The notes under the pieces: generated by a model
Databases searched by the model: none
What the model was told of the DNA's origin: nothing
Seen by the model: only the letters and a program-made list of their open reading frames with translations
Translations under genes and position numbers: made by a program
Assembly (NCBI RefSeq): GCF_030463535.1
Contig: NC_132892.1
Span: forward strand, 32,095,436-32,159,435
Origin: Salminus brasiliensis
Lineage: Eukaryota; Chordata; Actinopteri; Characiformes; Bryconidae
Direction: 5' to 3'
DNA: 64,000 nucleotides
In this document: positions 14,001-50,700 of the stretch, piece by piece
Layout of the letters: the number at the start of each line of letters is the position of its first letter
How positions within the stretch are numbered: the stretch's first letter is position 1

Positions 14001-14823
14001 TGGTATCTGGCACTGAGAGATTAGCAGCAGATCCTGTAGGTTGTGAGGTAGAACCTCCATGGATAGCATCAATGAGACTTTGAGAACTGACTGCTCACTT
14101 GCTGCCTAATATGTCCACCCCTTGGCAGGAGCCACTGTAGATGAAGCTAATCAATGTTTTCCATTCTACCTGTGAGTGGTATTAATGTTATGGCTAATTG
14201 CTGTTTCCCTTTGACTAGGAATTGAATTCTAGTGGTACGCTCTCCTGTGTATATTGGAAGGAAAAGGAATGGGTGGTAGATGGCTGTACATATACAAAGG
14301 TCAACAGCAGTCATGCTGTGTGCTCCTGTACTCACCTGTCAACGTTTGCTCTCATCATGCAGACCAACCCCCAGGAGGTAAGCAGAGGTGATTTAGCCTG
14401 GCCTGGTTGTGAGATACAAGTCTTCGCAAAACAGCCCAAGTCAACAAGAACCTGTATGGTCATTTATCACAGTGTGAAGAGACTGATGATGTATTGGAGC
14501 TGATCAACATGGTGGCCTTAACAGTGGGGCTGGTGTGCCTGGTTTTGGCTCTGTTGACCTTCTTTTTCTGTCGTCGGAACCCAAGAGTGACCAAAACGGC
14601 TCGGATCAACCTGTGTATAAGTCTGCTGTCGGCTCACCTCCTCTTCCTGCTCACACAAGAATTCCTGCAGTACATACAGCCTCACCAGGTGAGTGTCATT
14701 ACCTACCTACTACCAACACACAACCTCAAAAAAAGGGGGGGGGTCATTACCTACACCCAGCCTCACCAGGTGAGTGTCTTTACCTACACATGCTTATTTT
14801 TAGAGCTAATGTTTGATTCACTG

Positions 14824-14877
<54 letters not shown>

Positions 14878-28400: not shown

Positions 28401-31400
28401 TGTGTTACCACAGTGCACAATTTTACACTTGTAAAATGTTTTTGTTGGGTTCCAAAAGCTTAATCTTTCATGTCTTCAAATCATTTATTAAACTATATGA
28501 TAATAATAATAAAATCACTTCAGCAAGAAGAGTGGTCAAATATCCAACCAGGATTTTGCTAGAAGCTTGTTGATGAATACAGATGGGTTATACTAGTACA
28601 GCTTGTGTAAATGCACAATTGTACGTTTGGCTCATGTAATTACACCAGTGTATCCTAATAACTGTAACAGCTATGGACTATTAATGTGTAACTAGGAAAT
28701 AGAAGCCTCATCATACCATTCAGGCCCTGCCTAGTAAAGGCCATACCTCAAAACTCAGAACTAGAGTCAGGACTAGAAGTGAAGGAAGCTAGAAAGATGC
28801 CAACAATCACTTTGAAGGAGCTACAGAGTTCAGTAGCCAAGACTAAAGATATAGTAAACTAGTCAACAGCAAACAACTAGCCCTTTTGGATAGTTACTGC
28901 AGAAAAGTCACATCGAAGTGTCTAGAGTTTCTGATTTTCTGGAACAGTCTCCCAAAAGATATAAAATATAAAATAAAAATCACTTCAACAAAAAGAATGG
29001 TCAAATATCCAACCAGGATTTTGCTAGAAGCTTGTTGATGGATACTTAAAGGTTTTTGTACAATTTAATCGAATATTGTATGCTGTATGCATCTTGTATG
29101 TATCTTGACCCTTAGAGGATTTCAATTTCTGACATTTGAAATATAATTAAAACATATCATTTTTATTCCTCTATAGAAATCTTTACTTCTGCTGGGACAA
29201 CAGTAACATCACCTTCAAATCTATCAGGTAATTTTCATGTTTCTATAATTGTTTTTTTATAGCCTCATTATTGCAAAGAAGATTGTTTTTTTAATGCTGC
29301 ATTCTTGGATTTGATTAGTTGTTTCATAAAAAACAACAAAGTTGATGCACTTGTTAAAGTTCTTTAAGGAGCATTTTTAATGCAATGTGGTTTTACCTGT
29401 GGTATTTTCTTGTTGTTGAGAACTTCTGTGACAACAGATATATTAACTATTACTATGTTCTTTTATAGAGATACGTTAATACATAATTCCTTGAAATTTT
29501 ACGTATGCTGTTTTACTTGCCAGTAATATATATAGGATTTAAAGAGGCAAAAAAAGTGTTTCAGCAAATTAATATTAAATAAAATCACCTTCCCCTCATC
29601 AGAGGGAAATAACGTCTTTATACGCCAAGTGATATAAATACAGTATTCAGATCAAAAAAGGTTTATGAAAACTCATTCATAAGGAGAGAGTGTGTTTATA
29701 GTTTTACACTTTTTTTATATTTTTACTGTTAATATTTTAGAATTATTTAACTATAAGTGCTGCTTATGAGAAGTGTTTGATTATGATTTTGCATTCATTG
29801 CTTTCCTCTATAGAAATCACAACCTCTGCTGGAACAGTTTTATCATTGTCTGTTGTAACAGGTTATTTTCATGTTTCTTACTGAGATTAAACTATTTAAT
29901 CCTCATAAAATCACAGAATACTTTTTAATACTGTATTGTTTGATTAAATTATTAATTTCTAAGAATGTATTAAAGCATACAAATACGTGCACATTTACCT
30001 TTACCTTTACCTTTATATCATTTGCCTCTCATTTGGTTTCACTTGTGGTATTTTATTGTAGAATCAGAAGACAAAGCAAAGGCTGCTATTCTTTCAATTA
30101 GCTAAAATGTACTTTCTCTTTTTCACTCACTTGTAGTATCTGAAAAATGGGATAGAATATTTTTATGGATGTTGGTAAGAATACATCTAAAGGACACAGT
30201 TCTTGTTCTCTCAGCAACCCAAACACATATGGGCCCACCATGAATTGTCTCAGCTCTCTGGCAAGTCACTCCTTATTCAGAAGCCCTCTGAAGGTTTGCT
30301 GAGAGGTTTACTGAGATAAGCCGTAAAATGAACATCCATGGCTCATGGTTTCATGGTGTAAAATTGGTATATTTGTAATATTTTGTAGTGCTGTTCTCAT
30401 TATGAACTCTCTCTTTACAGATCTGAATCTCACTGCTTTTGAAGCTTGTAAGGTCTGCAGAATCATAACCTTAAGAAGAACATTGACTCTTAATAATAAC
30501 CGTAGCTAATTGTGGAAATATCTGAAATGTCTAATACAGCTTTCCTGTCCCAGGCTGATGCTACACCAGATGGTATAAACGACCTCTTGAGCCAGATTGA
30601 CAAAATTACTACTCAACTGTTACCACAAAATGTAAGGAATGAAAGAAAAGTTGGATCTGATGTTCAGTTAGCACTATTAGCAAGTGCACTATATGTCTAA
30701 ATGTTTGTTGACCCCTTCTTATGAACGTATTCAGCTATTTTAAGCCACACCCATTGCTGAGACAGATGTGCAAATGCACACATTTCTTGTCTAGTCCTTG
30801 TAGAAAAGTATTGCTAATAGAATAGGACCCTCTGGTGCATAGAAACATGAACCAATTGGCATCATGTCTAATGCCAGGTGTGGGCTAGAGGGGTGTAAAG
30901 GGGATGATGATGTGGGGTGGTGATCATCCAATATTCTGACCTCACTAAGTCTCTTGCTTCTGAATGCAATTAAATCCCTACTGCAAAATCTAGTAGAAAG
31001 CCTTCTTCCCTGGACGGTAGTGACAGTTACTCTTTAAACTCTTTTTAATAGTCCTTATTTTAGAAGAAACAACAAATGAGCAGGTGTCCCAATACTTTTG
31101 TCCATATATACACACATGTTTACTCATGTGTTTGTCATGTTATATTCTATTCCTGTACCAGTGCATCCATTCCAGCTTCTCTCTGATTATCACTGAACAG
31201 GTAGTGAAGGACATTTTGGAGTTCCTGACCTCTCAACACAACAGCCTGCTTGTTGGAGAAGCGAGTCAAGAAGAACGTGTATCCTCTTTCAATGCCCTGC
31301 TAAGAGCCAGTGAGAAAGTGGTGTCTACTTTGGTGATGAAAACAGAGACCAACTACTCTGTTAGCTTCTCCCTTCAAACTATAGGTAACTAATCAGACGA

Positions 31401-34400
31401 CAGGAAAATGGCTGTAGAGATGATATATGAGCATGCAATACACGTACACACCACATTGGATGTGACCCCACCTTCTGTTTTTCTATTAGCGATTCAGGTT
31501 TTTGTAGTTGGACCAAACTGTACCTTGGAGAACATCCCTCTGCTCAACACAGCAGATGCTCAAATGGACATCGATCTCATTGGGGTTTCTAAAAACGACA
31601 TGAACAGAGGTACAGTAAAATTACTGTTGGTGAATTTTACAAGCCAACATGCTTAAGTGGGACTCATGGTGGGTTCCAGGTGGTCATGGGCTCTAAATGG
31701 GTTTGTACATGTGCTGTTACTGAAGCCCAGTTGGGTTTTACAAATAGGCCCCATGATTACACTCCACCATTATCTCACATCTAGAGTCCCATCCAGACCC
31801 TGTGGATGGAGCCATAAATGATAGAATGTCCCTAATAAATATATGTATACTCATGCCATATATAGAGTGCAATAAACAACTTCAGTGTCTACTTAATCTG
31901 TGCTCCAGGACATGCTGCTGTAAGCTTCATGAGCTATGCCAACATGTTCAACGCCAGCTTCTTCAGTACAACTGCTGACTCACCGAGTCTTATGATGTCA
32001 TCTGTGGTTTCAGCCACGCTTCCAAAAACCACCAACACAAGCCTCACAGAACCAATCAACTTTACCCTGAAGCACAGTGGGCACATTGCTGTGAGTATTC
32101 CCCTTCTATTGAGATTTACTGATCTAAGCCAAGTCAGCCAAGATGCCTACTTAGCCCATAATGAAGACCTTGAGGTTATCAAGCCACCAAAAACTCCCTG
32201 CAAAATCTTCTGCATTTTGATCTTCTCAACTGATGCAGTGCTGGCTTAGAGCATGTTAAGCATCGCAGGAGTCAACAGACCCCTGAGAATAATATGTTCT
32301 GCTTAAACACAGCGGTAAAAACAAAGGATCAAAACTGGCTTAAAACAGACGACCTGGATTGAATCTGGACAGCCCTCATTTAAATATTATCTTTGCTAAA
32401 AGTTCCATCACCTGCTTTCATAATCTCTTCTGCGTCTTGCTTCGGCTAGGAGTTAGACCCAGAAGGTAGACTGTCCTGCATGAACTGGAAAGACATTAAA
32501 TGGGTGGCAGATGTTTGCAGTATCATTTCAACTAACAGCACTCACACCGTGTGCTCCTGTCATCACCCTGGAACCTTCGCACTCATCATGCAAATCAAGT
32601 GTTCGTCAAAGGTGAGAGTCTGGAGCATATAAAGGGGGGGGGGGGGTTCTTCACATCCACAGATATCTAAAAATGGTTCTTTATGGAACACCAAAGAGGA
32701 CCCTCTGAAGTCCTAAGAACCCTTTGAAGTACCATTATGTTTAATAATGTACCTTAGCTACCGTAGGTCTTCACCATGTCACATCTAATGATGTTCTAAA
32801 CTACAGAGCATGTGTAACAACACTGCAAAAAAAAAAGTCTTAGCAAGTGTGATCCTCTTAAACGTAATCTAAATATACCCTGTTTCTCTTTTTTTGTAAT
32901 TATAGGTTAATTCTAGAGTTATCATAATGTAATTACAGAGACTATAAACTTATTATAAGCTTACTTAACTTAATCCTCACTAAATTTAACTGGTTACGTT
33001 ATTTTATCTACTAAAGTGTAATTATTTCTTTGGCAGACAATTTTGCTTACTTTAAGACATAACTGACAATTAAGCTAAACGATCAACTAGATCAACTTAG
33101 CCCCAAGTTTGGCGTAGTTTCTTTATATGGGGCAGTGGTGGCTCAGCGGTTAGAGCGCCGGGAGTTGGCAGCCCACCGCTCTGGGTGTGTGTGTGTGTAC
33201 TCACTGCCCCTAACACATGTGTGCGTGTGAGTGTGTGTTTACTACCAGATGGGTTAAATGCGGAGGACACATTTTGCTGTACAGTCCACACTGTACAGTG
33301 ACAAATACGTGCACCTTTACCTTTAGTGGATAAAAACACATTCAGTAGATAAACATTCCTAAATCCAGTGAAGATAAGTCAGAAATACATAGAATAATCC
33401 TATAATATTTCTCAACAATCTAAAAATAGGGAATATCAGATATTTAGACCACATTTAAGAGGAATCTTGCTTGCTAGGATATCATTTTTCTTGCAGTGAA
33501 TTAGTCATATATATTTATCACTAAACTGCATATAGTGATGTGTATCAGACAGTAAATTTAGTGGAAATGTCCTCTCTTAACGTTCAGGTCCCCCAGGACT
33601 ACCTGTACACATTGAACGTGGTGGCCATGGCTGTTGGGCTGGGTTTCCTTGTCTTGACCCTGTTGACCTTTGCTCTTTGTCGACAACACCTGAAAGTGAA
33701 CAGCGTGGCTCAAGTCAACCTCACCTTAAGCCTTCTGCTGGCCCACCTTCTCTTCCTGCTCACACAAAAGTTCCTGCAGAAAATACGAGAAAGTCTGGTG
33801 AGTGTTCACTCCTACATACCCTACCCTACTGACCCAACAGGTCATTATCCTCATCAGGAGTGCAGTGAGGGTTGCTTTTGAGGTGCTTATGTCCGAATAG
33901 CAAGCTATATGTGCTATTGCAGCATGCTTACAACCCTGTTATGTCACCATGTAGACGTACAAGCAGCAAAACAGCCAGCCTGAATTTACTGCCTCAGGGC
34001 TGGCCCAAGCCTTTATGGGGCCCTAAGCAGATTTTCATTTGGGGCCTCCCATGCCACCACCTCAGCACCAGATGCTTCATCATTTCATAGGTGGAGAGAC
34101 ATTGTGCAATACACTAAAGCTCCCAGGCCTTTATCAACCACCTAAGAGGTGCATATCTGCATTTGTGCTACAATGGCAGCAGCCAACAGCAGGAAGTGAT
34201 TAACCTAGTATTGTTGTGCCAAATATGACAATAAATTAATATAAAAATGGCTTTTGCCGGTGTAATACCATCTCCTTTTATTATATATACAAAGTCATTT
34301 TTAAAATATATACATTTTTATCATGATATCTTGGTGCTCTTGGGGGCCCCCTGGTGGCTCCTGGTTATATGAGTTTGCTGTCTGCATCCAGATTCCTTTA

Positions 34401-35913
34401 CTGTGTTCAAATCCAGACTAAGAACAATGTCTAGTTAAAGGAACAGTTGACCCCATCCTGGCTACAATGACTCTTATTGGTGTAGTGTGAGGTTCAAGAT
34501 CTAACCCCAGTTTTAGATACTAGCCTATTTATCTGACCTTGTCTCTCTGTCTCGTTGTTCCAGATGATCTGCACCGTGCTGGCAGGTGTTCTGCACTTCC
34601 TCTTCCTCTCTGCTTTTGTGTGGATGCTCATCGATGCTGTTCTGCTCTTCATCTCTGCCAAGAACCTCATGAAGATCCAATCCAGCAAGAAGGAGGATAT
34701 ACTGGGCTGGAGATGTCTGATTGTGATTGGATATGTAATTCCGCTGCTTCTGGTGGGGGTGTCCGCTGGGTTGGTGCCTGATGGATACGGCACTGAACAG
34801 TAAGTTCCATCTGTTTCGGTGGACCTTAGCTTACATGACTTTTCAGCACTGGAGTTGGGCAAGGGGATCAACAGGGATTCTGTAGCATCTCCAGCACCCC
34901 TAATTCTACACTGTAATATAGAAATTGTTGACCACTCGAAATGAAATTCAGATTTGTTTTAATCTCAACAAATGCATTGGTCATCATTCTTAAGAGATTT
35001 TCTTTGTTTAGTTAAATTAGATATGCTTGTTCATACAGTATTGGTTTTTGAAGAACTTCTTGTTAAGATAGCTACAAATGTCACAGTCAGCAAATGATTG
35101 GAGATTGTTGGTGAGAAATCCTAACTTTTTTCATTGCCCTTACTAAACTTCCTTTATTCAGCCAAGTGAATTTGTTCACTAAACTAAAACATTGAAGAAA
35201 TGCCAATGAATTGTTTTATATTTACCAAATATATCTAGTTTATTTAATACTTTATTTTATGTTGTGTCAGCTACATTGTGAGCCCAGAGAAGTTGACAGT
35301 ATAATCAGTGGCAATGCAGGAGCGAACACTGCAATACTCAGCTAGCATAGTCACACTCAATAGAACAACAGCCTACAACACCATTATAGTCAAACATTAT
35401 ATCAAATATAACTGAATACCTAACTGGGGTAGCATGTGGGGAATGACTACACACTGGCAGTGCATAAAGGTGGACAGGGGCATGGCCAATATGTAAAAAG
35501 ATAATGCCAGGAGACAGGAAAGTTTCAAGAGCTGGCTGTATGCCTTGGTAAGCATCTCCAACAGCTTAATCAAAATTCAGCGATCAGGTAACACAGAGAA
35601 TTTTGTTGGCACAATATCCAAGTGTTTTTACTTATTCTCATAAAGAAATTGAGATTTTCGTATCCTTAGTGATTCAAAATCCCAAATTAGGTGTAGGAGT
35701 AGAAACCCTGTAAGCCTGTTTGCACTACCCACACCATCTACTGTCATAGTTGTAGGTGCAAATATGTAGTGCTGTGAAATAGCTAATATAATTGTTTGGA
35801 TATTGTATAATAATAATATAGATCATTTTCTTTTTTTTTCAGATGCTGGATTAAGATGAACAATGGCTTTTTGTGGAGTTTTTTGGGTCCTGTGTGTTTC
35901 ATTCTTGCAGTAA

Positions 35914-35983
<70 letters not shown>

Positions 35984-36834
35984 TTATTGTTTAATTTTTT
36001 GTATGCTTTTGTTGCTAAGAATGGTCAAGCCATGGCCTGTTTTTATCATCAAATTCTATTCATTTTGAATATATTTTCTAATCCATGCATACATATCATG
36101 TCCTCATATGCTTGCTTTTTAATTTAGGCATAAATATAAAGACTGTACTACACTACATATTACAACAGTTTCTCTGTTTTTATCTCTGCAGTCTAACCTG
36201 ATTCTCTTTGGTGCCATCCTCATCATGGTCACCTTCACTCTGAGAAGCCTGAACAATGAGATCTTACTGAGAACAAATACTCAAATACTGGCTGATAAGA
36301 AGGTCATTAAAAGCGTGATGTTTAAAACCGGGGTCCAGTTCTTCATCCTCGGTTGCCCCTGGATACTGGGTTTCTTCACCTGCAACAGTGAAGTGCTGGA
36401 GATTCTCTTCTTGGTCTTCAACTCCCAGCAGGGCACCTTCATCTTCCTCATCCACTGCGTCCTCAACAAAGAGGTCAGTCTTCGAGTTCTTAGATCTAAG
36501 CTGCATTCTCTGAGGAGGTGGTATGAAAAAAATGGGACATTGAGATAAGGTGGAATAATGGGGTGTTGAGGAGATGGAGAGGGGGAATAGAGTGTTGAGG
36601 ACATGGGGGTGGAGTAATGAGGTGTTGAGAAGATATTTCCTAATCTTATTGTTTCATATCACAAACAAACATCCTGCTGATTTCAGGGGTTTAGTTCAGC
36701 TCTGTCTGAAATGTTCTCATGATAATTACCTTCTGATCTTTTTCCAGGTCAGAGAGCAGTGCAGGAAGTGGTCAAGCGCTTTCTTCTCATCTAAAAAGCC
36801 CCTACATTCCCCACCAACAATGATGTCCAGATGA
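22428..36834 (+). CDS. Gene 2: adhesion GPCR, FN2-D8C-EGF-stalk-GAIN-7TM, 826 aa
   Basis: Exons: 22428-22446, 24948-25001, 25993-26160, 27605-27970, 28069-28203, 29177-29227, 29814-29861, 30421-30452, 30554-30631, 31201-31384, 31490-31609, 31909-32090, 32450-32611, 33588-33797, 34564-34799, 35843-35909, 36192-36473, 36748-36834; in frame, 2481 nt. Signal peptide 1-24 (MGSFLPR+VSVLLLTTT), FN2 25-80, D8C-like 81-202 (seven Cys), EGF 203-247, two Ser/Thr-rich stalk exons 248-280, GAIN 292-533, 7TM about 534-790. Membrane receptor, ligand unknown. Oddities: the GPS reads His-Pro/Gly-Thr at 518-521, so autoproteolysis is unlikely; TM5-TM6 are in one exon where gene 1 has two; the EGF donor (AAG|GTGCTG) is weak, and reading through adds GADCI then a stop with AATAAA overlapping it. 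AATAAA at 36994-36999. Confidence 0.88.
22748..22890 (+). mobile_element. Tc1-like transposase N-terminal relic
   Basis: Translates in pieces like the DNA-binding start of a Tc1-like transposase (SGVFRKKTVDADGSGK-type), with frame breaks. The same region is better preserved at 60510-60700. It lies in gene 2 intron 1. Confidence 0.5.
23990..24470. mobile_element. Dispersed repeat, copy 1 of 3
   Basis: Carries 'TTAATGTGTAACTAGGAAAT', 'CCAGGCCCTGACTAGTCAAG' and ends with 'AGAGTGGTCTCTGACTTTTG', a Tc1-like terminal motif. Copies at 27060 and 28590 lie in other introns of the same gene. Confidence 0.75.
27060..27548. mobile_element. Dispersed repeat, copy 2 of 3
   Basis: Nearly the same as 23990-24470. 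It ends with 'GTGGTCTCTGACTTTTGCAC' and lies between the FN2 and D8C exons of gene 2. The preceding 26180-27050 is A/T-rich with nothing recognisable. Confidence 0.75.
28513..29040. mobile_element. Dispersed repeat, copy 3 of 3, flanked by long direct repeats
   Basis: The element at about 28590-28960 is flanked by direct repeats of about 60 bp ('GGTCAAATATCCAACCAGGA' at 28533 and 28998), much longer than a normal target-site duplication. It lies between the EGF and stalk exons of gene 2. Confidence 0.7.
29160..29250 (+). repeat. Duplicated stalk exon of gene 2, copy 1
   Basis: Exon 29177-29227 plus flanking intron matches 29797-29885: 'CTCTATAGAAATC' before, 'TTTTCATGTTTCT' after. It encodes a Ser/Thr-rich stretch (EIFTSAGTTVTSPSNLS), phase 1-1, 17 codons. 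Confidence 0.85.
29797..29885 (+). repeat. Duplicated stalk exon of gene 2, copy 2
   Basis: Exon 29814-29861 (EITTSAGTVLSLSVVT), phase 1-1, 16 codons. The donor is weaker (ACAG|GTTATT) than in copy 1 (TCAG|GTAATT), so this copy may be skipped in some transcripts. Confidence 0.75.
30793..31110. mobile_element. Non-autonomous inverted-repeat DNA element
   Basis: Shares 'AATAGAATAGGACCCTCTGG' and 'CAGGTGTCCCAATACTTTTG' with the 15420 and 55535 copies. It sits in the gene 2 intron before exon 31201. Confidence 0.65.
31650..31815. repeat. Fragment of the 'ATGGGTGG.ACATGG' element
   Basis: Related to 16290-16590 and 44350-44920 ('GGTGGTCATGGGCTC', 'GTTTGTACATGTG', 'GGCCCCATGATTACA'). Confidence 0.4.
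33125..33340 (+). mobile_element. tRNA-derived SINE
   Basis: Head 'GTGGCTCAGCGGTTAGAGC', then a deleted middle, then 'GGCAGCCCACCGCTC' and a GT-rich tail ending 'CACTGTACAGTGACAAATAC'. It is in the gene 2 intron after the GPS exon. Confidence 0.7.
35915..35978. repeat. (TA)n microsatellite beginning inside a donor site
   Basis: The donor GTAAGT at 35910-35915 of the 67-nt exon of gene 2 runs straight into about 32 TA units. Length changes here would alter sequence from intron position +6 onward. Confidence 0.9.
36526..36640. repeat. Short array of the 'GTGGAGTAATGGGGTGTTGA' minisatellite
   Basis: Same unit as in the last intron of gene 3 (52840-53570), at the same place relative to the gene, so it predates the gene 2/gene 3 duplication or was converted. 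Confidence 0.75.
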
Positions 36835-37590
36835 AACAAAGAGAAGCTAAGATTTAACAAAGCGACCATTATTATGATCTCTGTTATAACATGTGATTTA
36901 ATGTAGTGATTTTAGCTGCAGGGTGAAAACAGCCCTTTCTATGCTATCCAGCAAGAAACACTGTGTGCATTCATACTTAAAAAAAATAACAAAAATAAAT
37001 GGACACTTCTGCTGTAAAGTTTTTCAGTGCATGTTTTCTTGGTTCGGCTTGTTTTCTTGGTGGGGTCCAGCGCTGGTGAGCTAGGGCAGCACACTACATC
37101 GTGTTTTTAGCATTATCACAGGTTTTAATTGATGATGGACATGTAAATAAAAGGGCCTGATGAACAAATGCAAAAATAAGAGAGCTTAGTGCTGGGGGGC
37201 TTTATACCCTTCTAGCCCACACCTGGCATTAGGCATAGGTTGATGTTGATGATCTGCTCCAGAGAGTCCTAGTCTATTCTCTACAGGGCTTAGACCAGCT
37301 CTGTGTGTGTGTGTGTGTGTGTGTGTGCATTTGCACATCTGTCTTCAAACATTTGGACAATGGTTATTCATCTGATGTATCAGTATATGCGAACATTTCG
37401 TAGTGTGGAGAGAAGGTTTAGCATGGACAGATCTTCTCTCACGTCATAATGTCATTCTGGAATTTGACTGAAATCTGCTAAACAGATTTAGAACAATCCT
37501 GAACCCTGATTTTAATAAACTGCAACCTCCGCTCCCAGCATGGTTTTCTACGTTTACACTCAGCTGATTCTCTTTGATGTCTGTTTCCAG

Positions 37591-37617
37591 GTTAGTCAGA
37601 AGTATAGGAAGCTTTAG
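37591..37617 (+). pseudogene. Orphan terminal aGPCR exon
   Basis: After an acceptor 'GATGTCTGTTTCCAG' the sequence reads VSQKYRKL then TAG. The gene 1 terminal exon at 17988 begins VRQEYRKLLCDY after 'TATGTCTGTTTCTAG', so the resemblance covers both intron end and coding start. It lies 750 bp beyond the gene 2 stop and is closer to the gene 1 type of tail than to that of gene 2 (VREQCRKW). It is best read as the remnant of a lost paralogue. It could be used as an alternative last exon of gene 2, because the phase (0) fits. Confidence 0.6.
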
Positions 37618-37689
37618 TGTAGTTTTTAGACACCACCCATCCCTGCCTCTGTGAATGGTGTCCAAACCACATTCAAATGCCCCTTCCAG

Positions 37690-38192
37690 CTGATGTGTTA
37701 CGATGCTACTGTTTCTGTCAAATATGCTAATATTGAGCCACCACAGCTGAACATTCAAGTCATGAGCTCCACAAGACCTCTGAAGGTGCCCTGTGGTATC
37801 TGACGCCAAGACGTTAGCAGCAGATCCCTTAAGTCCTGTAAGTTGTGAGGTGAAGTGAGACTTCCATAAGCATCTTAAGCTCCTTTGGTAGGTACAGCAG
37901 AAGTTCTACCAGTAGACTCTAAGGCTGCGACACTTTTGCCTCAACCAATCACCAGCTTCCACCTGACTTTAAAGATCTTGTTGCCTTCAGATGCGAATGT
38001 TAAATTTGTTCCCTCCTTTTTTCTGAAACATTGCTGTGAGGATAAGATTGTTTTCAGCATCAAGAGCATTAGTGAGTCCAGGATATTGGATGATGATCAC
38101 CACCCTATCTTATCATTCACAACTCCCCAACACTTGCCAAACATATTGGATGGAGCTCCACCATCCATTATTCCAGAGAACACAGTTCTTTA
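37690..38192. mobile_element. Transposon fragments
   Basis: 37740-37870 shares 'GAGCTCCACAAGACCTCTGA' with 13975. 38060-38192 carries the 'CCAGAGAACACAGTTCTT' core of the inverted-repeat family. 36840-37590 is gene 2 3' UTR plus another partial copy (37190-37400). Confidence 0.5.
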
Positions 38193-38207
38193 AAAGATGG
38201 TTTAGTG

Positions 38208-38443
38208 GTAAATCAGGGCTTAATGATGGTAAATCAGGTGAGCTGCTGCTGCTGCTGCTGCTGCTGCTGATGGAGTTGAACACATCCTCCAAGCTGTGCT
38301 GGCTGGACTGGGGGGCGTCCAGGAGAACCCTGGAGGAACCGAGCTCTGTTCTTCAGACTAGCTCACCGACAAGATCTCACTACTTTCTTTCTTCAGAATG
38401 AGAAGCTCTTGTTTCTCCTTTTTACTGGATTTATCTTCACCTG
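38208..38443. repeat. Direct repeat upstream of gene 3 exon 1, with (CTG)n
   Basis: Matches 39785-40015 almost base for base ('GAGTTGAACACATCCTCCA', 'GGACTGGGGGGCGTCCAGGA'), including an internal CTG tract of different length in the two copies. Not a gene by itself. Confidence 0.9.
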
Positions 38444-38796
38444 ATTTATCTGTTCTGATGGGATCTGGAGCTTCTGCAGTAAAACTCTCTCACAGCTGAT
38501 ATATTTATTTTATATACCAATTTATTTAAAATGGTCCGTCATATTCAAACAACCTGTACGGTAATTTAAGTTTTAGAGGACTGAGCCATGAACTTTGAAC
38601 TTTGCATACACCTGAGGTTTTGGTGTTCATGGAACGGTACAGTGTGTTTTATAGCCTCTGGACATGCTCAGTCCAGGAAATTCAAATGAAAGGGAGGCTT
38701 CCAGAATATTAAAATCCATCATAAAACTTCAGCATTCAACCATTCAACACATTACTCTGTTCCTGTTTCCTGCAGAGGATAAATCAGAAGAAGAAC

Positions 38797-41700
38797 ATGA
38801 GTGTCAACAGCTACCTTTTCATATGTGAGTAACAAAACACGTTTATGTCTTTTAACAAAAGTGGGGAAGTGGGAGCTTTAGTCTTAACGTTACTGTACGT
38901 AGTTACTGTTTGTTAGATGTGTGGGTCCTACATTTGTAAAGTGATATTTGTGGAAATTGCTCAGTCTGATGTTCCATTTCTGCAGTTGTTTCACAATCAG
39001 TTCATCGTACTTGAGGTAGTACCTAGTTCTAAGGTACTCAGTTGATGAAATTTGTACCTTAAGCAATATTTTCTAACTGAGCCCCTTAAACAGCCTATAG
39101 TCCACCGGTGGGCCGAAAGTGTTATTACAAGCTTCTTCTGACCAGAGAATAGCCTCACCAGTCTGTACACATGTTTCTGTAGATACTGAGTAATACACCT
39201 TAGTGTGTGATAAGCCTTGGAGCGTTAGTAGTGGTGCTTTTACTTTTACTTCTGTTTATATTTGAATAATAAAAAATTTAAACTGAGTTTTTAATTTAAT
39301 CAATTTCATGACCTGGTTGGTGATTGCATCTCTCACTTTCAAGCTTTAGTGTTTTAATATAGAAGATACGAGCCTACCAAACTTCAGCTCAGATGCTGCT
39401 CTGGTAATGTATTTCCACATTAGAAGCTCTGTACTGTTGATTTTTTAGGGTTGTTTTGATTCTTATTTGTAAGGTTTTATGTACAAACATACAGGACAAG
39501 ACTATTTTCCAATCTTTCTGTGTCCACTACAACTAAACAGACGGCTTTGGTAACTTGGTGATTGGTTACACTGTACTGTACCTTGTTCAAAAACACACTA
39601 AATGACATTTATTTCTTCAGTAAATCACTGACATAAGAATAAATACTAATAATATCACTCCAACAGAAAGTGGTGGTGGTGGTTCTCCATCACTGTGTTC
39701 ATCATTAGAACATCTCCAAAGTTCTCTTCTCTCATGGAGTCTAGTATTATTTAGAGTTCTCCTCAGATCAACACCTGGTTTGATGGTAAATCAGGGCTTA
39801 ATAATGGTAAATCAGGTGAGCTGCTGCTGCTGCTGCTGCTGATGGAGTTGAACACATCCTCCACGCTGTGCTGGCTGGACTGGGGGGCGTCCAGGAGAAA
39901 CCTGGAGGAACCGAGCTCTGTTCTTCAGACTAGCTTACCGACAAGATCTCACTACTTTCTTTCTTCAGAATGAGAAGCTCTTGTTTCTCCTGTTTACTGG
40001 ATTTATCTTCACCTGCATTTACAAGGGGTTGTTTTTTTAAGCTTAGCTTCCTTGTATGGAAACTTTTTAGAGACGCACAGATTATTTGCATAAAACCTCA
40101 AAATCTCATTTGCATGATAAAAGAAGGATCACGTGTTATCGTTTGAAAACCCTAACAACATTGTGTTTAATCTTTTATTTCTTAGCACTATTCTATATGC
40201 AGTACTTCTTCTCTACAGGGACTAAATAAGCTGTGTGTGTGTGCATTTGCACATCTGTGTCAGCAATGGGTGCAACTTAAAGTAGCTGAATGCATTCATT
40301 AGAAGGGTTGTCCAGAATTATTGGGACATATAGAAATATCACACAGGTTCTACTCTGAACCTGCTGTTATGTAATGTAGCTGTTATGTGCTTACTTATTA
40401 TATCTGGTTCAATGCATTTCATTTTTGTTAATAGATGCACTCAAAGTTATCTCTCCACCAGGTGTTGCTGTGCTCGCGCTAACAAGTGGCGTCAGACCGG
40501 CATTATACTGTGAGTACAGTCTAAAACTTTGTATACACTATTGAAGACTTTTAAGACTGGCTTGGTGTATCTAGTTGGTAGATTGTATCCACACACTCCA
40601 CCTTTACCTTTATTACAGCTCCTATTCTTCTCAGAAGTCCTACTTTCAGTGTTTATGTCAGTGTTAAAAGTCTGAGCATCCAATTTATCCCACATTCAAA
40701 GATGCTCAAATCTGAACTCTAGGTTAAGCTCTTTTGTTTGATTTTGTTTGATTTGTTTGAGTCCTCCTAAACACCAATAATTCTGATGTCTGGAACCTGT
40801 GTTTGAAACTAGGTTAGTCCAGCAGTTCTACTGTTTAATTTGGTCATGAAACAATCATTTATTATACATTTTCAGCCAAAACAGCCTTTAATGACATGTT
40901 ATTCAAGTTTTAACAGAGAGCTACGATAATGTTGAGGTCTGGAGTCTGGGGTGGTTGCTCAAGCAGCTTTTTTCATTAATTTGATAAAATGTTTGTTTTG
41001 TTTCTTGAGGGCTACTTTATTGGTTAGTTCTTGATACATTGGGGAAAAGCCTTAATTTGCATATATTGTAAGTCATTAGTTAAGAAAAATAAAATATGGA
41101 ATTTGCACTCTCTTTAACATTACATGTTCTACAATGAAGCACTAAGAGTCTAAACTCTATTCTCCACCAGTGTAGAACCATTTTTGTCTGAGCTTCTTGT
41201 CTGCTTTGTCCCAGTAAGAAAGTGTAGAACCTTTTTTATAAGCCTGCAGAAAATAGATATAAGGGGTGTCAGTAGTTTTTCATTATAGACAAGAACTGTT
41301 TAAACAATCAACCCATTCTTTTTTTAGTAATCTTAGTTCTATAACAAAAAAACAACAACATAAGATTAGATTGAATAAATAAATTCCCAAATATCCACAA
41401 AGCTACAGTCCAGACCCACAGCATTGACTCGTGGACACCATCCTCCACTGGTAGATCATGTTGCTTGATTCAAGCATTATTTCTTTAAAAAGAAATATCT
41501 GTTATTTGTTTAAACAGAAACATGTTTTTTCCTTGCCACTGTTGCCACTAGTTTGCCCTAAAGAGGCTCGGTCCCGGATCTCTGTAAATCAATGCTTTCT
41601 GTTCATGTGGCTGAGAATAAGGTGGTTTCTATGGCCTTTATGTGGGTTGCATAGGACAAATGTGCATTATAAGCACCATTAGAGCGTAAAAATTAGTTCT

Positions 41701-44700
41701 TTGAATTGAACCAGTTTGGTTATCCAGCACACCTTTACATGAATGTTCTTTTAATAATCATTTCAGTAACTTAACATTTAACATTTAAACATTTAACATT
41801 TATTGTTATAGAATTGAAAAGTTCTGGAGTGCTTAAAGGTTTTTTAATTGTATAAAAATTAGAATAACGCAGGATAAGTCACTTAAAACAAGTAAAAATG
41901 AAAAGTTAATATAAGTTAATAAATCTTACGATATTACTACAATAATCTCAACATGAGATCTTAGATATTTACATTTCATTCTTCTGCAGTGTAATCTTGG
42001 TGGTCTGCTAGATCTTGCACAATTCTTGGGGTGCCATTATCTCTCCATGTCTGAATAATTTTCCGAACTCCAGTTCTAGAAACTCCAGTTTTTTCACGTA
42101 CTTTACCTTGACTGTGCCCTTACTTTCGCAGGCGGGTTGATTTATACTAATCCTCTCATTTCCAAACTTACCGGCCTTTTGATTGGACTATGAATACATG
42201 AAGGGTGGTCTCAGACTTGTGCAGAGTGCTGTAGAAAAGCACATTCCAGTCAAGATTTCACTTCTACTGCTTTCCTTCTGTCCAGACAACATCACAACTA
42301 AAGGAGCTCAGTGTGCTTTTCCATTCTTTTACAATGGAACTACTTACACTGACTGTGTCAATGCACCCGGCGGCTCTAAACCATGGTGCAGCACTGCTGA
42401 GAACTGTACCAGAGAGGAACAATGGGGAGAATGCCTTGATTATGGTAGGATTCTTTTTTTTATCTTTTATACACACAAAAGTTTTTACAAAAGTGCTTTG
42501 CTATTTACCCAAGAAAAACCTCAGCTAGTTTGAATAGTTTGAATAATAATTCAAAGATCCTCTATTCTTAGACTCTACTAAACACAAGACAGTAAGGTGG
42601 CTATATTACATAGTACATATTACTTAGTGCTATTCGCCCAAGTATTCTTGGAAGAGGTGGGTCTTCAGTCTGCGTTTAAAACACACATTAGTTGTAAAAA
42701 GCCTAAAGAAATAAAACTGAATTGAATTGAACTGAGTTGAATACACTGATGCTTAGCACTGAGAGGTTCATATATTTGAAGGGATCAATGCTTTCTGTTC
42801 GTGTGTCTAAAAGTAAGATGGTTTCTATGGCCTTTATGTGGGTTGCATTGGACGAATGTGCGTTATAAGCGCCATTAGTGCATAAAAATGAGTTGTTTGA
42901 ATTTAACCAGTTTGGTTCTCCAGCGCACCTTTACATGAATGTTCTTTTAATAATCATTTCAATAACTTAACATTTAACATTTAAACATTTAACATTTTAA
43001 CATTTAAAGAATCGAAAAGTTCTGGAGTGCTTAAAGTTTTTTTAATTGTAAAAAAAAATGTATAAACATCAAATTACAGAAACTTAAACAGTAAGTATGT
43101 GACTTTGGTTGGGGTGAAGAATGCTCAGATGTGGTTTTACAAGCTTATTTACCACCCTGTTATTTTACCTCACCATGAAACACACTGGTATTTCTTTTAT
43201 GAAGGGCTCGAAAAAAGGAAAAAGGCTTTACTTTCCATCAATATGATGACCCACAGCAGCAAAGCATAGTAAAGCTTAGCCTAGCCTAGCCTAGCCTAAC
43301 TCTACCGCACTGTTCCAAGACATTAGTCTTACAAAACAGTGTGATTGTCTTCACTGGATCCCCTTGGCTGCCTGAAGAGATTGTACCTGGTTAGCATTTT
43401 TTTGCCTAGCTTTAGCTTTTAGCCTTTCAACCGCTCCATCAGCTGCTGACACGGTTCTTTTGACTCACATTCGCTCAACGCAACCCTTCAGAGGACTTCA
43501 GATTTGCCTCTAAGCAGTGCTTCCCCCAGTCGGTTTGCCTTTTTAGGCCTGCTTTCACTCTCCCAAACTTGCTGTTGTGTTTAGCTTCTTGTCAGCTAGT
43601 GGGTTGGGTGTACGCAAATTTTTGAGAGTCTGAATATAATCAGCCAAGATTGTTATGTAACCGTTCTGGGGTTTTGCTTCAAACCACTCTCCATGACTGG
43701 GATTTACCTTAAAGCTAGAATATGTGAAGGTTTCTTGTAGTACCTTCTGACATCGAGAACCCTGCCCTTCAAAGGCAAAACCTTATCTGTTGGTGTGCAG
43801 TGAAGAGTGAACCGTGAATATCACAAAAACCCACTCTTGACCCCCTTCTGATTCAGTCCTCTTGTTCTCAGATGTTTGCCTGTCTCATTGGACTCTTTCT
43901 GACCCATGGAGGAACACTGATTTTAACATCACCTCTTTCCCTGGCTGGCCAATGAATGACCTATACTTGCAAGAGGGGTGGTACAAATTTACTGGTATTA
44001 GTGGAGACCACATGGTCTACAACTGCTTGACTCTCAGTGAATTATTGAATAATCCCATTGGAAGCTCAAGCGTCAGTTCTGCAGACTTCTCCTTCTACAC
44101 ATGTGAGATGGTGATCGACAGTCCAAAGAATCTAGACTGTGGTAGAGGGCTGGTCCTCTACTATCTCGTTCCAACCAATGGGATGTACCTCACACGTAAG
44201 TATATTTACAATCATTCACATACTCAGCAATTGTCTGAAGCTCTTATCCAGAGTGACTTATATGTGAATCATAAGTTAGAGTAGAGTCTTACCCAAAACC
44301 TTTAGACCTTTCAAAAGTCTAAAGAACCATGACTTGACTTCTAGACAACGTGCTCATGAGGGGCACATGGGTGGAACATGGGCCAGGTGGTTTCCATGTG
44401 GGAGTGGGTTTGTGCAGTGTTCAACCTAGATAAAACCAATGTTTTACCCCTCCTGGTCCCAGCACTGACCCTGGTAGGCCTGTTACAGTATAGTAGTGCC
44501 ACTAGGTGGCACTCTGACAATGTAAGCCGAAAAATTCATGTCCAGGGGTGGGGAGAGAGTAAATTCAACAGTGAGATGACACATGCATACTGTCCTAGGC
44601 TTAAGTACTGTTATGCCAATAAATTACATTCTGATTCACTGACACTAGAACCTTGTAAGACCACCTCAAACAGGCAAACACAGAACCTATAGATAAAAGC

Positions 44701-47700
44701 TTTCTTGTTCCCAGTTGGGCTACCCAATCAAGCCCAGCATTGGACATGTTATCTGGTTTAAAGGTTTTTCACATTTGCACACTTTTTTTACGTACATGTG
44801 AGACTAAGGTGGGCTATAACGATTGGGCCCATTTGGGAAGCCCAGCTTGGTCCCAGTACCAACACATGCCACATGGAAACCACCTAGCCCATGTTCCATT
44901 CTTGTGAGCCCCATATAAGCATGATGTCTGGGAGTCAAGTCGTGGTACTTTAGACCTTTGAAAGGTTCGTTGCTCTCACACATCGATATTCCAGAGCTTT
45001 TGGGTTCTTTATGGATCCAAATGTGGAACCATTTGAAACATTCACTTTTAAGAGGGTAGAAATCAGCTGCCTAAGACAGCTTGACAAACACAGGTAAACA
45101 CAGGTAAATCCTTTGCTCAGGAAGGTAAATCAAGTATGGTTTGTTTAGGTAAGTGTCCTTCTTTCCTCCACAGGTCATTCCATCTGCAATGCGTCTTCCT
45201 GTGGTCCCAGTGCTCAGTGCAATCCTCATGGTGGCTGTGATTGTGTCCCTGGAAATTTAACACCAGTTGGCTTCCTGAAATCAAGGCAGTCTTATACGTG
45301 CACAGGTGCTGTAGATATTAAGAAACACACTGAGAAATGAACAGAAAGAACACTAGAATATATAATAATGCTGTCCATATAGTTTTCCAAAAAGTACACA
45401 TTGGTGGGGGGGTGGGGGGGGGCAACCACTATGATCTGAAGATCGCTAGTTCAAATCCTAGGTCATGCTGCGTGCTATCAGAAGCCAGAGTCTGAAAGAG
45501 CACACTTAGCCTTGCTGGGGTGTGTTGAGAGAAGCTTGCCTTCACCTTCAACATGAACCAATTTTTTATCAAAATTCTTTTCAGATTTTATTCCACCGGT
45601 AAGAGAAGACTGCAAGGTGTGTATGACGTACTGCAAAATCCTTCAAAATGACCGGCAACCACGGTTCATTACCCATACTCAAACTTATCCATTTTCTAGG
45701 ATCATTGCTCAGAAGAATGTGCATTGGATCTCCTCAGGCAGATTCAGGACAGGCCTGATCAAGTGATGTCAAAGGACGTAAGGAACCCTTGGCCTAGAGC
45801 TAAATGTGTACTTGAGTGTTGAGTCGTCTGAAGCTTATTTGTTGGGATTTGGCTGTGACATGTACTTCTCTTATGATTGGTCAGGTTGTGGCGGAGTATT
45901 TAAAGGAGGAAATGAATTGCGTGAGGGTTCTAGAGCATGGCTCTCCTCAGAAGATGCTGTTCCATGGGAACCTTATTCTGAAAAGCACTAAGAAACTAGT
46001 GTCTGGACTGGTGAAGTTTACATTCACATATTACCCAATCAGCATCGCCTTCAACTCATTGGGTAAATGGGTTCACAGCTATCAAATCACTTGTTACAGA
46101 TTTTCATTGAAGGGCAGCATGGCTGTGTGGTGAAGTGTGTTTTCTCTTAAGAGACTCATAGAGTAATAGGGATGTATTTCCACATTTAAAAACAAAAAAG
46201 TTTTCAAAGGAGATCCTCTGGAGTGGTACCACAGAAGAACCATTTTGTTCAATAGACATTCCTTCAGAGAAGTTAAGCAAGTGTGAAGAACCTTCTTGAA
46301 GTTAAAAGAACCATTTTTAATATTGAAAAAAACTAACATTTTGGTTTATTTGCCGATTCTTTACAAATTTAAAGTAAATGAAACAAACCTTAAAAATTAG
46401 GAACCATCTTTAAAGTTAAAGAACCATCTTTAATATTGAAAAAAAAAACATTTGGTTTATTTGGTGATTCTTTACAGACATTAAGTAAATGAAACAAACC
46501 TTAACATTTTTTTTTCGAAGGAGAGCCTCAAAAGTTGAAGAACCATTTGTAAAATTTGAAGAACCATGTGTAAAGTTAAAAGAACCATTTTTTATATTGA
46601 AAAAAAAAACATTTTGTATTTTTTTGATTCTGTACAAACATTAAGTAAATTAAATTAACCTTTAAAAAAGTTTTCGAAGGAGATCCTCTGGAGTGGTACC
46701 ACAGAAAAACTATTTTTGTTCAATAGATGTTCCTTCAGAGAAGTTAAGCAAGTGTGAAGAACCTTCTTGAAGTTGAACAACCATTTGAATTTTTTGCTTT
46801 GGTTTAATTGGCAATTCTTTACAGATGTTAAGTAAATGAAACAAACCTTAAAAATGAGGAACCATCTTTAAAGTTGAAAAAACGTTTTTAATATCGAAAA
46901 AAAAACATTTTTACAAATTCACAAATTTGTAAATTCTTAAATTTAAGCAAGTGTGAAGAAGCTTTTCAAAGTTGAAGAACCTTTACCAAAAAGTACACCT
47001 AACAGTTAATAAGTAAATAAGCAGTAAAACTGCCAATATGGAACCAAAACTATGAATCAAGTTCCCCTGACTCCTGACATTTTTTTGCTTTATCTATCAG
47101 AGGTTGAGGTCTTTGTGGTTGGACCTAATGCCTCTTTGACAGAAATCCCTCAACTCAACACAAGCAGTGCTTATTTGGATATTGACCTCATTGGAATTTC
47201 ACAGGACAACAATGGTATAGTAGAACCTCTTCTATTTCTGTTTGTCTTATATTAACACATATTAACATTAATATATTTAAAAAAAAATTCAAAATAGAGC
47301 ATTTGTATTTGTTAATATTTTATGTCTCTAGATTGCCTGACAGCAACCCCTCTTTCTTTGATAAACCATTTGTCATTGATACATTTCTTTCCTGGGTGTA
47401 AGAATGATGTTTAACATGAGTTCATAACTGCAAACTGGGCTGAAGTCGGAAACTGGAGAAATCCAGTTTTAAAATCTATTTGAAATGTGACAGATTCATG
47501 ACATTTAATATGCTACTAATGGCAGGTCAATTAGATCGGATACGTCTGATACCTCATTCCATTCTCCTCAAGCAAGAGTAGGTTTTTAATTTCTGACTTT
47601 TCGGTGCCACCTTTTCTTTGTGTATGTTTCTTATGCGACCGTCTTAACAGGACTGCAGCATTTCAAGACAGAACTCTTTAAACTGGCTGTTGTGTTTATT

Positions 47701-50700
47701 TGTGTGGATTTCTACATTTGCTCACAGCTACCATTTCGAAACTTAACCAGTCTGCCAGAAATCCCCCTGGCTGCAGAAAAGCTTCAGTCATTTTTTCATC
47801 CTTACCTTTTCTAACTTGTTCATATGTGTATTATAGGACATGCTGCTGTGGCACTTGTAAGCTACGCCTACTTGTCAAACATTCTGAATCCCAGCTTTTC
47901 CAACAAACGTGACGGCACAGACAAAATCATAGTGTCCACTGTAGCGTCAGTCATATTATTCAACATCAACAGTAAACAACTTTCCAAACCGTTCAACATC
48001 ACCTTGAAAAACACTACAGTGAGTGACTTATCTGAGTAATTCTCTTCTGGAATCTGAACTTGGGGATGTCCTGATCTATGTTTATCGTAAAATAATGAAC
48101 ATAAACCAGCCAGGGCTGAGTACAACAGGACGGCAGTCATTAATTTCATTGCCACAGGCTGGTTTGAAACAGACTTAAAATAAAAGGTGCTACAAAGGGG
48201 TTCTTTGAGTAATACATGTTTGACATATGATAATTATGAACATTTCAATTGGTAAAGAGACCTTTCTCAACTTCTTTACACCTTTAAAAGGGTCTTCACA
48301 TATAACTGATAGCCTAGAAAGCCAAATCATACACTCTTAAATGTGCCACAAAGGTTTTTAGGCAAAGGCCATCTAAGAACTACTTTTGTTTATGTAAAAC
48401 ACATGCATGTGTGAAAAACCTTTAACATAAAGGTTCTTTAGCAATTAAAAGGTTCTTCCAGTTGTTCAGTGTGTTTCATCTATTTTACACACTTGGAAAC
48501 CAAAAAATGGTTTTCCTCAGGCATCACCCATAGGACCCTTTGTATGATCTTTCTTTTTAATAGTGTATAATTTGGTTCTAATACTGTGGATGCATTATGA
48601 AAATAATCATCATTGGATCACCATCAAGAGTAAAGATGTAGTGGGGTGCATTTCCCCTCCTACATGGTTTTAGCATAAGCAAATTGACAAACATTTGGAG
48701 GAAAAGCTTCTTAAATTTAGAGTTTTTGTGTTATACTGTGAAATAGTTCCAAACGGCAGACTCTATACTAATCTGTTACCTTCTGAGAATGCTCATCACT
48801 GCTGGGAGCTGAGAAGAATATGTTCTGCCTGAACACAGCGGTAAAAACAAAGGATCAGAATCGATTAGGCTTAAAACAGACGACAACCAATCCATTAAAA
48901 AAATGCCTGTGTTAGATCTGGACATCCCTTCTTGTCGCTTATTATCTAAGACAAAAGTTGTACCACCTTCTTTCACATCCTCTTCTGTGTCTTGCTTTGG
49001 CTAGGAGTTAGACCCGGAAGGTAGACTGTCCTGTATGACCTGGAAAGACACTAAATGGGTGGCAGATGTTTGCAGTATCATTTCGACTAACCGCACTCAC
49101 ACCGTGTGCTCTTCTCATTACCCTGGAACCTTCGCACTCATCATGCAAATTAATTGTTCATCAAAGGTGAGAGTCTAGAGCATATAAAGGGGGGGGGGGT
49201 AAGTTTGTGTTAGGGACCAAGAGAGAGATTTCTGAGATCAACAGAAACTGAGATCTACTTTGTTTAGTGCTAGCATTAGATGAGTCCTGTCCAGGTTGAG
49301 ATATGTTCTATGTTCTACTGTAAAACAGTTCCACGTGTAGGTTCTGTTAACTTCTGAGAATGCTCCTTGCTGCTGGGAGCTGGGATTAATTTGTTCGGCT
49401 TGCACACAGTGGTAAAAACAAAGGATCAAGTGGGTAATGGTTGGGTTATGGACCAAAAGATATTTCTGAGATAAAACAGAAACTGAGATCTACTAAAGAG
49501 AAGAACAGAAAGAAAGCACATTGGCCAAATTGCAAGATCTCACTAGATGAGGAAAAGTGGAAGTTGAAGGAACGTTTAATTCCTGATGTTTGGGCAGCAT
49601 CAAAAATCTGTGTGGTGTTTGAGATTTCCTCATTAAGCTTTTTTTATGGTGGGTGTTTAGATGAGTTAAGACATTTATTTAGCAATGATAAGTTAGCAAT
49701 TATTTACTCTTTAAAATAAAAGGGCTACAAAGGGTTATCTGAGTGATACCATAGAAGAACCAGTTTTTGGACTTTTTGGAATATGTCTGTGAGCGTGAAG
49801 TAGGTTTAGTACCTTTATTTCAAATGAAGCTTATTTAAATCTTTAAAAGGTTTTTCACACCAACAGATAGATCCCTTTGTAGTACTTTTAATAGTAATAC
49901 TTTTTTGCAGTATTTATAAAAGTGTACTTAAACTACTAGAGGTTTTCACTGTATCACACTCAGTGTTCTTGTGTCACTAAAGATTAGATATTGTGTACAA
50001 CAAAGGCTTTAACTGCAAAAAATGATGTATTAGAAAGTGAAATTATCTTAATGTGGTCTAAATATCTACTATATCTCATTATGTTATATGATTTTTTATC
50101 TTTTTTACCTTTTTTAGTTGTTATCTATCTCCTAAATTGTAGATAAATAACAAGGAACCCCATATACCTGCCTCTTAAGTATCTGCCACTATTAATATCA
50201 CCACTATTACCTATCACTACTCCATCACTGCCATGACTGTATTAAGTTCTACCATGATTAATATATTATGATTATGATCAGAGCAGTTCAACAGTATTGA
50301 TGGTTTGGTGACTTTTATCAATAATTTATCAATAGTTCTGATCAGAGGAGTTTGGCTCAGGTCCCCCTTGTGAGTCTTGGTTCCTACCTTTTTTAGTTGT
50401 TATTTATCTACTAAATTGTCTTATTCTATTGGCAGATAATCTTTCTTATATCCTATAATTTATTTTTACCAACATTAAAATAAAAAATATCAGAAACTAC
50501 TACTACTATTTTTTTTTGCTGTGAAAAAGTCATATTTTCATCACCACACTGCATGAATTCATATAAATCAAACAGTAGATTCAGTAGAAATGTCCTCTTT
50601 CAACATATCAGGTTCCCAGTGACTATGCGGATATAATCAACGTGGTGGCCATGGCTGTTGGGCTGGGGTTCCTTGTCTTGACCCTGTTGACCTTTGCTCT

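Follow-up and report, generated by a model that had tools for sequence, protein, structure and literature searches.

Among the adhesion G protein-coupled receptors (aGPCRs), the genes ADGRF1, ADGRF2, ADGRF4, and ADGRF5 lie in one gene cluster. ADGRF2 and ADGRF4 were described as having no consensus GPCR proteolysis site (GPS) and no evidence of cleavage, and their relatives ADGRF1 and ADGRF5 were described as cleaved (PMC9489211). The GPCR autoproteolysis-inducing (GAIN) domains of ADGRB2 and ADGRB3 were reported to be uncleaved through a changed His, aromatic residue, or Gly (PMC13062082). It is also already known that uncleaved and cleaved ADGRE paralogues exist side by side, ADGRE1 (EMR1, F4/80) being uncleaved with a non-canonical GPS and the other ADGREs being cleaved (PMC10055975), and that fish have an EMR-like expansion, namely zebrafish emrl1 to emrl14, which are group II aGPCRs that lie close to CD97/EMR and have no one-to-one orthologues in mammals (PMC4335454). 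Here, we describe a row of aGPCR genes in the 1.07-Gb genome of Salminus brasiliensis. The window, which is the whole 64,000-nucleotide stretch that was analyzed (C15:32095436-32159435, C15 being contig NC_132892.1), contained three tandem plus-strand aGPCR genes (genes 1 to 3) and the 5′ start of a fourth (gene 4).

Our joint reading, which we consider probable, is that these are tandem aGPCRs near the ADGREs, that gene 1 autoproteolyses, that genes 2 and 3 are single-chain receptors with the tethered agonist motif TFALIM, and that gene 2 is a recombinant.

GPS exons and predicted cleavage

The GPS exons of genes 1, 2, and 3 lay at positions 14219-14377, 32450-32611, and 49005-49166, respectively, and all three, whose borders an earlier note on this DNA had given exactly, were preceded by AG and followed by GT. 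Their products were SCVYWKEKEWVVDGC...CSCTHLSTFALIM (gene 1), SCMNWKDIKWVADVC...CSCHHPGTFALIM (gene 2), and SCMTWKDTKWVADVC...CSSHYPGTFALIM (gene 3), and they scored 46.8, 34.2, and 28.5 bits, respectively, against a Pfam GPS (PF01825) cut-off of 22.5 bits. The earlier note had read His-Leu-Ser-Thr in gene 1 (at about 14323-14346), His-Pro-Gly-Thr in gene 2, and Tyr-Pro-Gly-Thr with loss of a GPS Cys in gene 3. All of these readings were confirmed. The gene 1 triad, HLS, lay at 14333-14341 (plus strand; codons CAC CTG TCA) and was followed by TFALIM. The corresponding triads were HPG at 32564-32572 in gene 2 and YPG at 49119-49127 in gene 3, both on the plus strand and both with TFALIM kept, and the Cys loss in gene 3 (CSC to CSS) was at 49113-49115.

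The published determinants of cleavage are an H-X-S/T motif, an aromatic residue at position 10.49 that stacks on the His, and a Gly that precedes Cys12.50 (PMC13062082). We transferred this numbering by our own matching of the C-x-F/Y-W and G-C motifs. Gene 1 had the triad, a Tyr at the aromatic position (14252-14254, plus strand; equated with L1 F803), and, in front of Cys12.50, the Gly (14282-14284, plus strand). The Tyr is compatible with cleavage because the F803Y variant of L1 was reported to retain cleavage (PMC13062082). In genes 2 and 3, the H-X-S/T triad was absent, the aromatic position held Asn (32483) and Thr (49038), respectively, and Val preceded the Cys (32513 and 49068).

The proposal that genes 2 and 3 stay as one chain with a TFALIM core therefore stood in two respects: TFALIM was kept, and the published H-X-S/T chemistry predicts that both products are uncut. 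The prediction is supported by the lost aromatic residue and Gly and by the presence of HPGT in a second cluster. Likewise, that one cluster holds cleaving and non-cleaving receptors stands as a prediction from the triads but not as a novelty, such coexistence being already known. The restriction of X to Leu, Ile, or Met did not hold, as HTT, HAT, and HMT-type sites were found in the same genome.

We also weighed whether the products of genes 2 and 3 might undergo cutting after all, through strain that drives some residual cleavage or through a different protease. SEA domains without a nucleophile were reported to keep some cleavage, and fragments of B1 and B3 (no His) with the size of a C-terminal fragment (CTF) were reported in mouse brain (PMC13062082). 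However, the nucleophile, the aromatic residue, and the Gly are all absent here, as is the His in gene 3, and we consider residual cutting very improbable.

Relatives of these exons were collected from the same genome. The family set comprised 17 GPS exons, 15 found on C15 by a search with the gene 2 GPS exon and two, those of genes 4 and 5, taken from the flank. The triad was HLS in 10 of the 17 (gene 1 and the relatives denoted A, B, C, D, Dp, E1, E2, G2, and I), HPG in three (gene 2, F, and H), YPG in gene 3, QMT in G1, and not recognizable in genes 4 and 5. F and H sit in a second cluster about 1 Mb away (C15:33.00-33.18 Mb) and share with genes 2 and 3 the Pro-Gly, the lost aromatic residue, the lost Gly, and an undivided exon for transmembrane segment 6 (TM6). 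The aromatic position held Asn in gene 2, F, and H and Thr in gene 3. Across the family set, in which many exons are near-copies and the counts are not independent, Tyr occupied the aromatic site in 10/10 HLS exons and Phe or Tyr in 0/7 of the others, and Gly preceded the Cys in 9/10 HLS exons and 1/7 of the others. The genome gave 56 Pfam GPS hits, 15 of which were not read; outside the family, H-X-S/T was present in 26 of the 28 GPS exons read, the exceptions being HLG (L008) and HHN (L063). The HLG exon was the middle member of a tandem GPS trio on contig C3 (L005, L008, and L007 at C3:5005039, 5024701, and 5044292) with the triads HLS, HLG, and HLS; in this member, the nucleophile Ser was lost to Gly independently.

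Two other readings of the GPS differences were tried and rejected. A base-calling or sequencing error did not account for HPG because HPGT recurs in F and H of the sister cluster and the change from Ser (TCA in gene 1) to Gly (GGA in genes 2 and 3) requires two base changes. Loss of the GPS Cys did not mark the non-cleaving type: A, B, and C have lost the same Cys (TGT to AGT, compared with TGT to TCT in gene 3) and have kept HLS. A third loss of that Cys with the triad kept was seen in an HLS GPS at C15:34307514 (L065; CSC to CSW). In addition, genes 2 and 3 had gained a Cys soon after TFALIM (IKCSSK and INCSSK, respectively), which was absent from the aligned exons of gene 1, F, and H.

Gene 2 as a recombinant

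Gene 2 is a recombinant of a gene-1-type N-terminal and GAIN half and a gene-3-type GPS and seven-transmembrane (7TM) half. The switch point is the intron just 5′ of the gene 2 GPS exon, at 32077-32283 on the plus strand, with gene-1-like DNA on its left and gene-3-like DNA on its right. Over the last GAIN exons, gene 2 matched gene 1 in blastn blocks at 31158-31398 (93%), 31467-31612 (85%), and 31903-32076 (80%), and no gene 3 block was found over this interval (31158-32076). From 32283 onward, it matched gene 3 at 32283-32644 (82%), 33485-33817 (87%), 34525-34805 (97%), and 36166-36503 (91%), and exon-adjacent introns were included in these blocks. The conserved 7TM exons also matched gene 1 at 72 to 87%, and short 5′ blocks of gene 2 matched gene 3 (78% over 169 bases and 80% over 86), so that in these parts the contrast is a matter of degree.

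Protein identities and synonymous distances (dS) reversed at the same point. In the GAIN region, identity was 119/157 between genes 1 and 2 and 63/154 between genes 2 and 3; dS was 0.21 and 1.24, respectively. In the 7TM region, identity was 154/253 between genes 1 and 2 and 239/262 between genes 2 and 3, and dS was 0.63 and 0.07, respectively. As for the earlier suggestion that the three receptors have almost the same 7TM, it fits genes 2 and 3 (91%) but not gene 1, which matched the other two at 154/253 and 160/253 (61-63%).

Trees of the two regions gave the same result. Genes 1 and 2 grouped at 100/100 in the GAIN tree, in which a grouping of genes 2 and 3 was rejected (approximately unbiased [AU] test, p 0.00095), and genes 2 and 3 grouped at 100/98 in the 7TM tree, in which a grouping of genes 1 and 2 was rejected (AU p 0.0011). 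The 7TM tree left out gene 5 (no TM3 exon in the stretch taken) and the 7TM-less cassettes Dp, E1, and G1; the GAIN tree left out gene 4, as well as D, Dp, and gene 5 for want of the GNb exon; and the GPS tree left out genes 4 and 5 and Dp. E2 may be another recombinant: its GPS is HLS and its TM1 and TM3 resemble those of the HLS genes, whereas its TM5 and its TM6 exon, which is undivided, resemble those of F.

Tandem near-copies are difficult to assemble and a single assembly lies behind the gene row, which would favor gene 2 being a chimera put together from genes 1 and 3 during assembly. Against such an artifact, both halves of gene 2 differ from their donors (119/157 identical to gene 1 in the GAIN, 239/262 identical to gene 3 in the 7TM), and its introns and 5′ exons differ from those of both genes. 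We give a chimera hardly any credence and treat the recombination as real.

Origin of the HPG type and proposed mechanism

The undivided TM6 exon of gene 2 lies at 36192-36473 (plus strand). The same region is split into two exons in gene 1 (15850-15941 and 16660-16822), and it is also split in G2. The second TM6 half alone was found for A, B, C, D, and I, which is compatible with a split and no proof of one. FastTree gave local supports for matching groups of 0.951 in the GPS tree (F, H, and genes 2 to 5), 0.908 in the 7TM tree, and 0.898 in the GAIN tree.

Ratios of nonsynonymous to synonymous change (dN/dS) were obtained by the Nei-Gojobori count with a one-sided Fisher test on rounded counts, and for the GPS exon three of the six HPG/YPG pairs were computed. 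These ratios were 0.24 for genes 2 and 3 (p 0.02), 0.37 for F and H (p 0.018), and 0.20 for gene 2 and F (p 5.9e-5), and the 7TM ratio for F and H was 0.29 (p 7.9e-7). Thus, the non-catalytic GPS exon looks to be under constraint.

Sequences, exon structure, paralogues, and recombination were observed directly, and from them we infer the cleavage state, surface expression, and signalling of genes 1 to 3 as follows. The gene 1 product would cut itself at the GPS in the endoplasmic reticulum (ER) and appear at the surface as a two-part receptor made up of an N-terminal fragment and a CTF. In the sub-lineage of genes 2 and 3, the GPS-7TM half has lost the catalytic Ser, the aromatic residue that orients the His, the Gly of Gly-Cys, and, in gene 3, the His, and it has retained a complete 7TM together with TFALIM as tethered agonist. 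These receptors would reach the surface as a single covalent chain and, if they signal, would expose TFALIM in the intact chain without shedding the N-terminal part. Exposure of this type has been argued for naturally uncleaved receptors (PMC13062082; PMC13197933). Gene 2 itself formed when a gene-1-type half was joined to a gene-3-type half inside the pre-GPS intron.

Several observations weigh against this reading. A single origin of HPG was weakly supported (62/77 on the GPS exon minus the triad columns), and the grouping of gene 3 with F and H in the GAIN tree reached only 70/80. The strict clade of genes 2 and 3, F, and H that we tried for the 7TM was not upheld (AU p 0.046), and the best tree added gene 4 and E2 at 51/91. 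The 7TM dN/dS for genes 2 and 3 was 0.60 (p 0.16); there were few changes, and constraint is undemonstrated for this pair. The determinants of cleavage also track one another imperfectly: gene I has HLS with Glu in place of the Gly, and G1 (QMT) retains the Gly. The gene models also lack start codons, signal peptides, and the exon that should link EGF-like to GAIN, none of which was located. Finally, cleavage of EMR2 was reported to serve as a checkpoint at ER exit (PMC12488864), and an ADGRE-like receptor that stays uncut might therefore be retained. A knock-in of uncleavable GPR116 was reported to resemble the knock-out (PMC9489211); for other receptors, then, loss of cutting can amount to loss of function.

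The weak tree supports and the borderline 7TM result bear on whether HPG marks one old lineage or instead arose repeatedly or spread by gene conversion. The latter would fit arrays that recombine, as gene 2 and E2 (HLS GPS yet unsplit TM6 exon) indicate, and the independent HLG loss in the trio on contig C3. On the other hand, four copies share Pro-Gly, Asn or Thr at the aromatic position, no Gly before the Cys, and the undivided TM6 exon, and we regard repeated origin or conversion as a doubtful possibility.

The constraint data bear on a further explanation, namely that genes 2 and 3 are copies in decay and that their GPS drifted as the receptors ceased to matter. Gene 3 shows further losses (the His and a Cys), genes 4 and 5 are without TFALIM, an in-frame stop interrupts TM5 of gene D in the second cluster, and the 7TM dN/dS of genes 2 and 3 (0.60, p 0.16) would be compatible with decay. 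Nevertheless, the reading frames of genes 2 and 3 are unbroken between the GAIN and the tail, their exon borders there are canonical, TFALIM is intact in 4/4 HPG/YPG copies, and the GPS exon dN/dS was below 0.4 in all three pairs computed. Decay is thus improbable, and we favor single-chain receptors that keep their tethered agonist.

The gene row, the second cluster, and known systems

All three genes had the aGPCR order, in which a GPS above the PF01825 cut-off lies directly 5′ of a class B 7TM, and they were read from the plus strand. Gene 1 (9896-16822) contained fn2, a Cys-rich exon, an epidermal growth factor (EGF)-like exon, GAIN, GPS (HLS), and 7TM. Its exons at 11363-11440, 11683-11860, 12244-12363, 12939-13111, 14219-14377, 14473-14688, 14878-15104, 15204-15270, 15850-15941, and 16660-16822 were open with AG/GT borders. 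Gene 2 (25992-36834; stop codon at 36832-36834) had the same order with a non-catalytic GPS (HPG), and its 10 exons from 30554 to 36834 were open with AG/GT borders. Gene 3 (42288-53773) again had this order, with a non-catalytic GPS (YPG) and a C-terminal tail, and its nine exons from 45885 to 53773 were open with the same borders. From GAIN onward, this was the case for all exons of genes 1 to 3 that were located. In gene 1, neither the first nor the last coding exon was located, and in gene 3 the initial GAIN exon was likewise not found. The 5′ part of gene 4 (61150-62960, plus strand; L048 and L049) comprised fn2 (61150-61353), the Cys-rich exon (61452-61739), and the EGF-like exon (62847-62960), and its GAIN, GPS, and 7TM lay beyond the window end.

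The fn2 exons of genes 1 and 4, the two copies scanned, scored 63.3 and 59 bits. A single copy of the Cys-rich exon was scanned and matched no Pfam family; we take it to be reminiscent of the uromodulin D8C region. The EGF-like exon, one per gene, fell below the Pfam cut-off (16.3 versus 22.1 bits). One GAIN exon of gene 2, scanned by itself, gave no Pfam family, and the putative GAIN assignment comes from position and exon conservation among the paralogues. Two exons of gene 2 exceeded the cut-off of the 7tm_2 family (47 and 21.9 bits). When the TM3 exon of gene 2 was compared with solved structures, the best relative was ADGRE1 (9uco, E 1.2e-13), followed by ADGRE5. Judged by this one exon, the 7TM appears nearest to ADGRE (EMR/CD97). 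In place of the tandem EGF domains typical of ADGREs, there was one sub-cut-off EGF-like exon plus fn2.

In chromosomal order, the row runs from HLS with TFALIM (gene 1) through HPG with TFALIM (gene 2) and YPG with TFALIM (gene 3) to genes 4 and 5, which have no recognizable triad or TFALIM. The candidate GPS exons of genes 4 and 5 ended in CWCYKNIPHGKTLEQF and CYCHYPEQGTVLEQV, respectively; they were assigned through weak tblastn matches (gene 5 to gene 3, E 2.5e-4; gene 4 to gene 5, E 6.8e-9), and their borders are approximate. Genes 4 and 5 thus seem to have lost the tethered agonist as well. Open TM1, TM3, TM5, and TM6 exons were found in gene 4, and only TM1 lay within the stretch taken for gene 5.

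Three loci of the second cluster carried repeated GAIN-GPS cassettes. In locus G (L044-L045, C15:33140024-33150352), exons of the fn2, Cys-rich, and EGF-like types preceded two GAIN-GPS cassettes (QMTT, then HLST) and a single 7TM; between the cassettes lay a GAIN-like exon, and the GPS exon of the first cassette was followed by a candidate phase-0 donor. A tandem GAIN, alternative cassettes, and two genes are the candidate explanations. Locus E (L041 and L042, C15:33111782-33120664) had two cassettes, both HLST, before one 7TM. Its second cassette, which lies on the opposite strand, was almost the same as the second one of locus G, and its TM5 and TM6 were of the undivided type. At locus D (L037 and L038, C15:33072619-33080811), a GAIN-GPS stretch was repeated at 1.66 kb, the GPS proteins of the two copies were identical, the GNb exon was found in neither copy, and TM5 contained an in-frame stop, which makes this locus a candidate for a pseudogene-like or misassembled copy. 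Self-cleavage could be an exchangeable module, with intron recombination around the GPS exon reassorting halves (gene 2 and E2) and splicing at locus G choosing between a cleavable and an uncleavable receptor or a two-GAIN receptor; we offer this tentatively and think it unlikely.

Whether aGPCRs need cutting and shedding or can use tethered agonism in the intact chain was described as an open question (PMC13197933; PMC13062082). Natural paralogues in one animal, with TFALIM conserved and the cutting chemistry different, would be ready test material without designed point mutants. This applies above all to gene 2, in which a gene-1-like GAIN half and a gene-3-like GPS-7TM half permit a half-by-half comparison. 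Genes 4 and 5 would add receptors with 7TM exons yet no recognizable tethered agonist.

Among the titles listed by the searches, whose coverage leaves most subscription journals outside, none on this gene row or on recombination between cleaving and non-cleaving halves was found. As far as these searches show, the recombinant gene, the HPG type common to two clusters, and the stepwise row are new within the literature covered. Like the zebrafish emr-like genes, the row is a fish expansion near CD97/EMR, and it may belong to that family; in the part of that source covered here, GPS catalysis is not discussed and the domains in the Figure 2 legend do not include fn2, which is present here (PMC4335454). 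ADGRB2 and ADGRB3 differ in keeping the Ser nucleophile, which genes 2 and 3 are without. ADGRF2 and ADGRF4 belong to another aGPCR family than the gene row described here, and we know of no recombinant of the gene 2 kind. A close parallel is ADGRE1 as described among the ADGREs, as genes 2 and 3 are predicted to be uncleaved members beside a predicted cleaving relative. Unlike ADGRE1, the fish genes have fn2 and a Cys-rich exon in the N-terminal part, and their non-cleaving half recurs in several genes, one of which pairs it with a cleaving-type GAIN.

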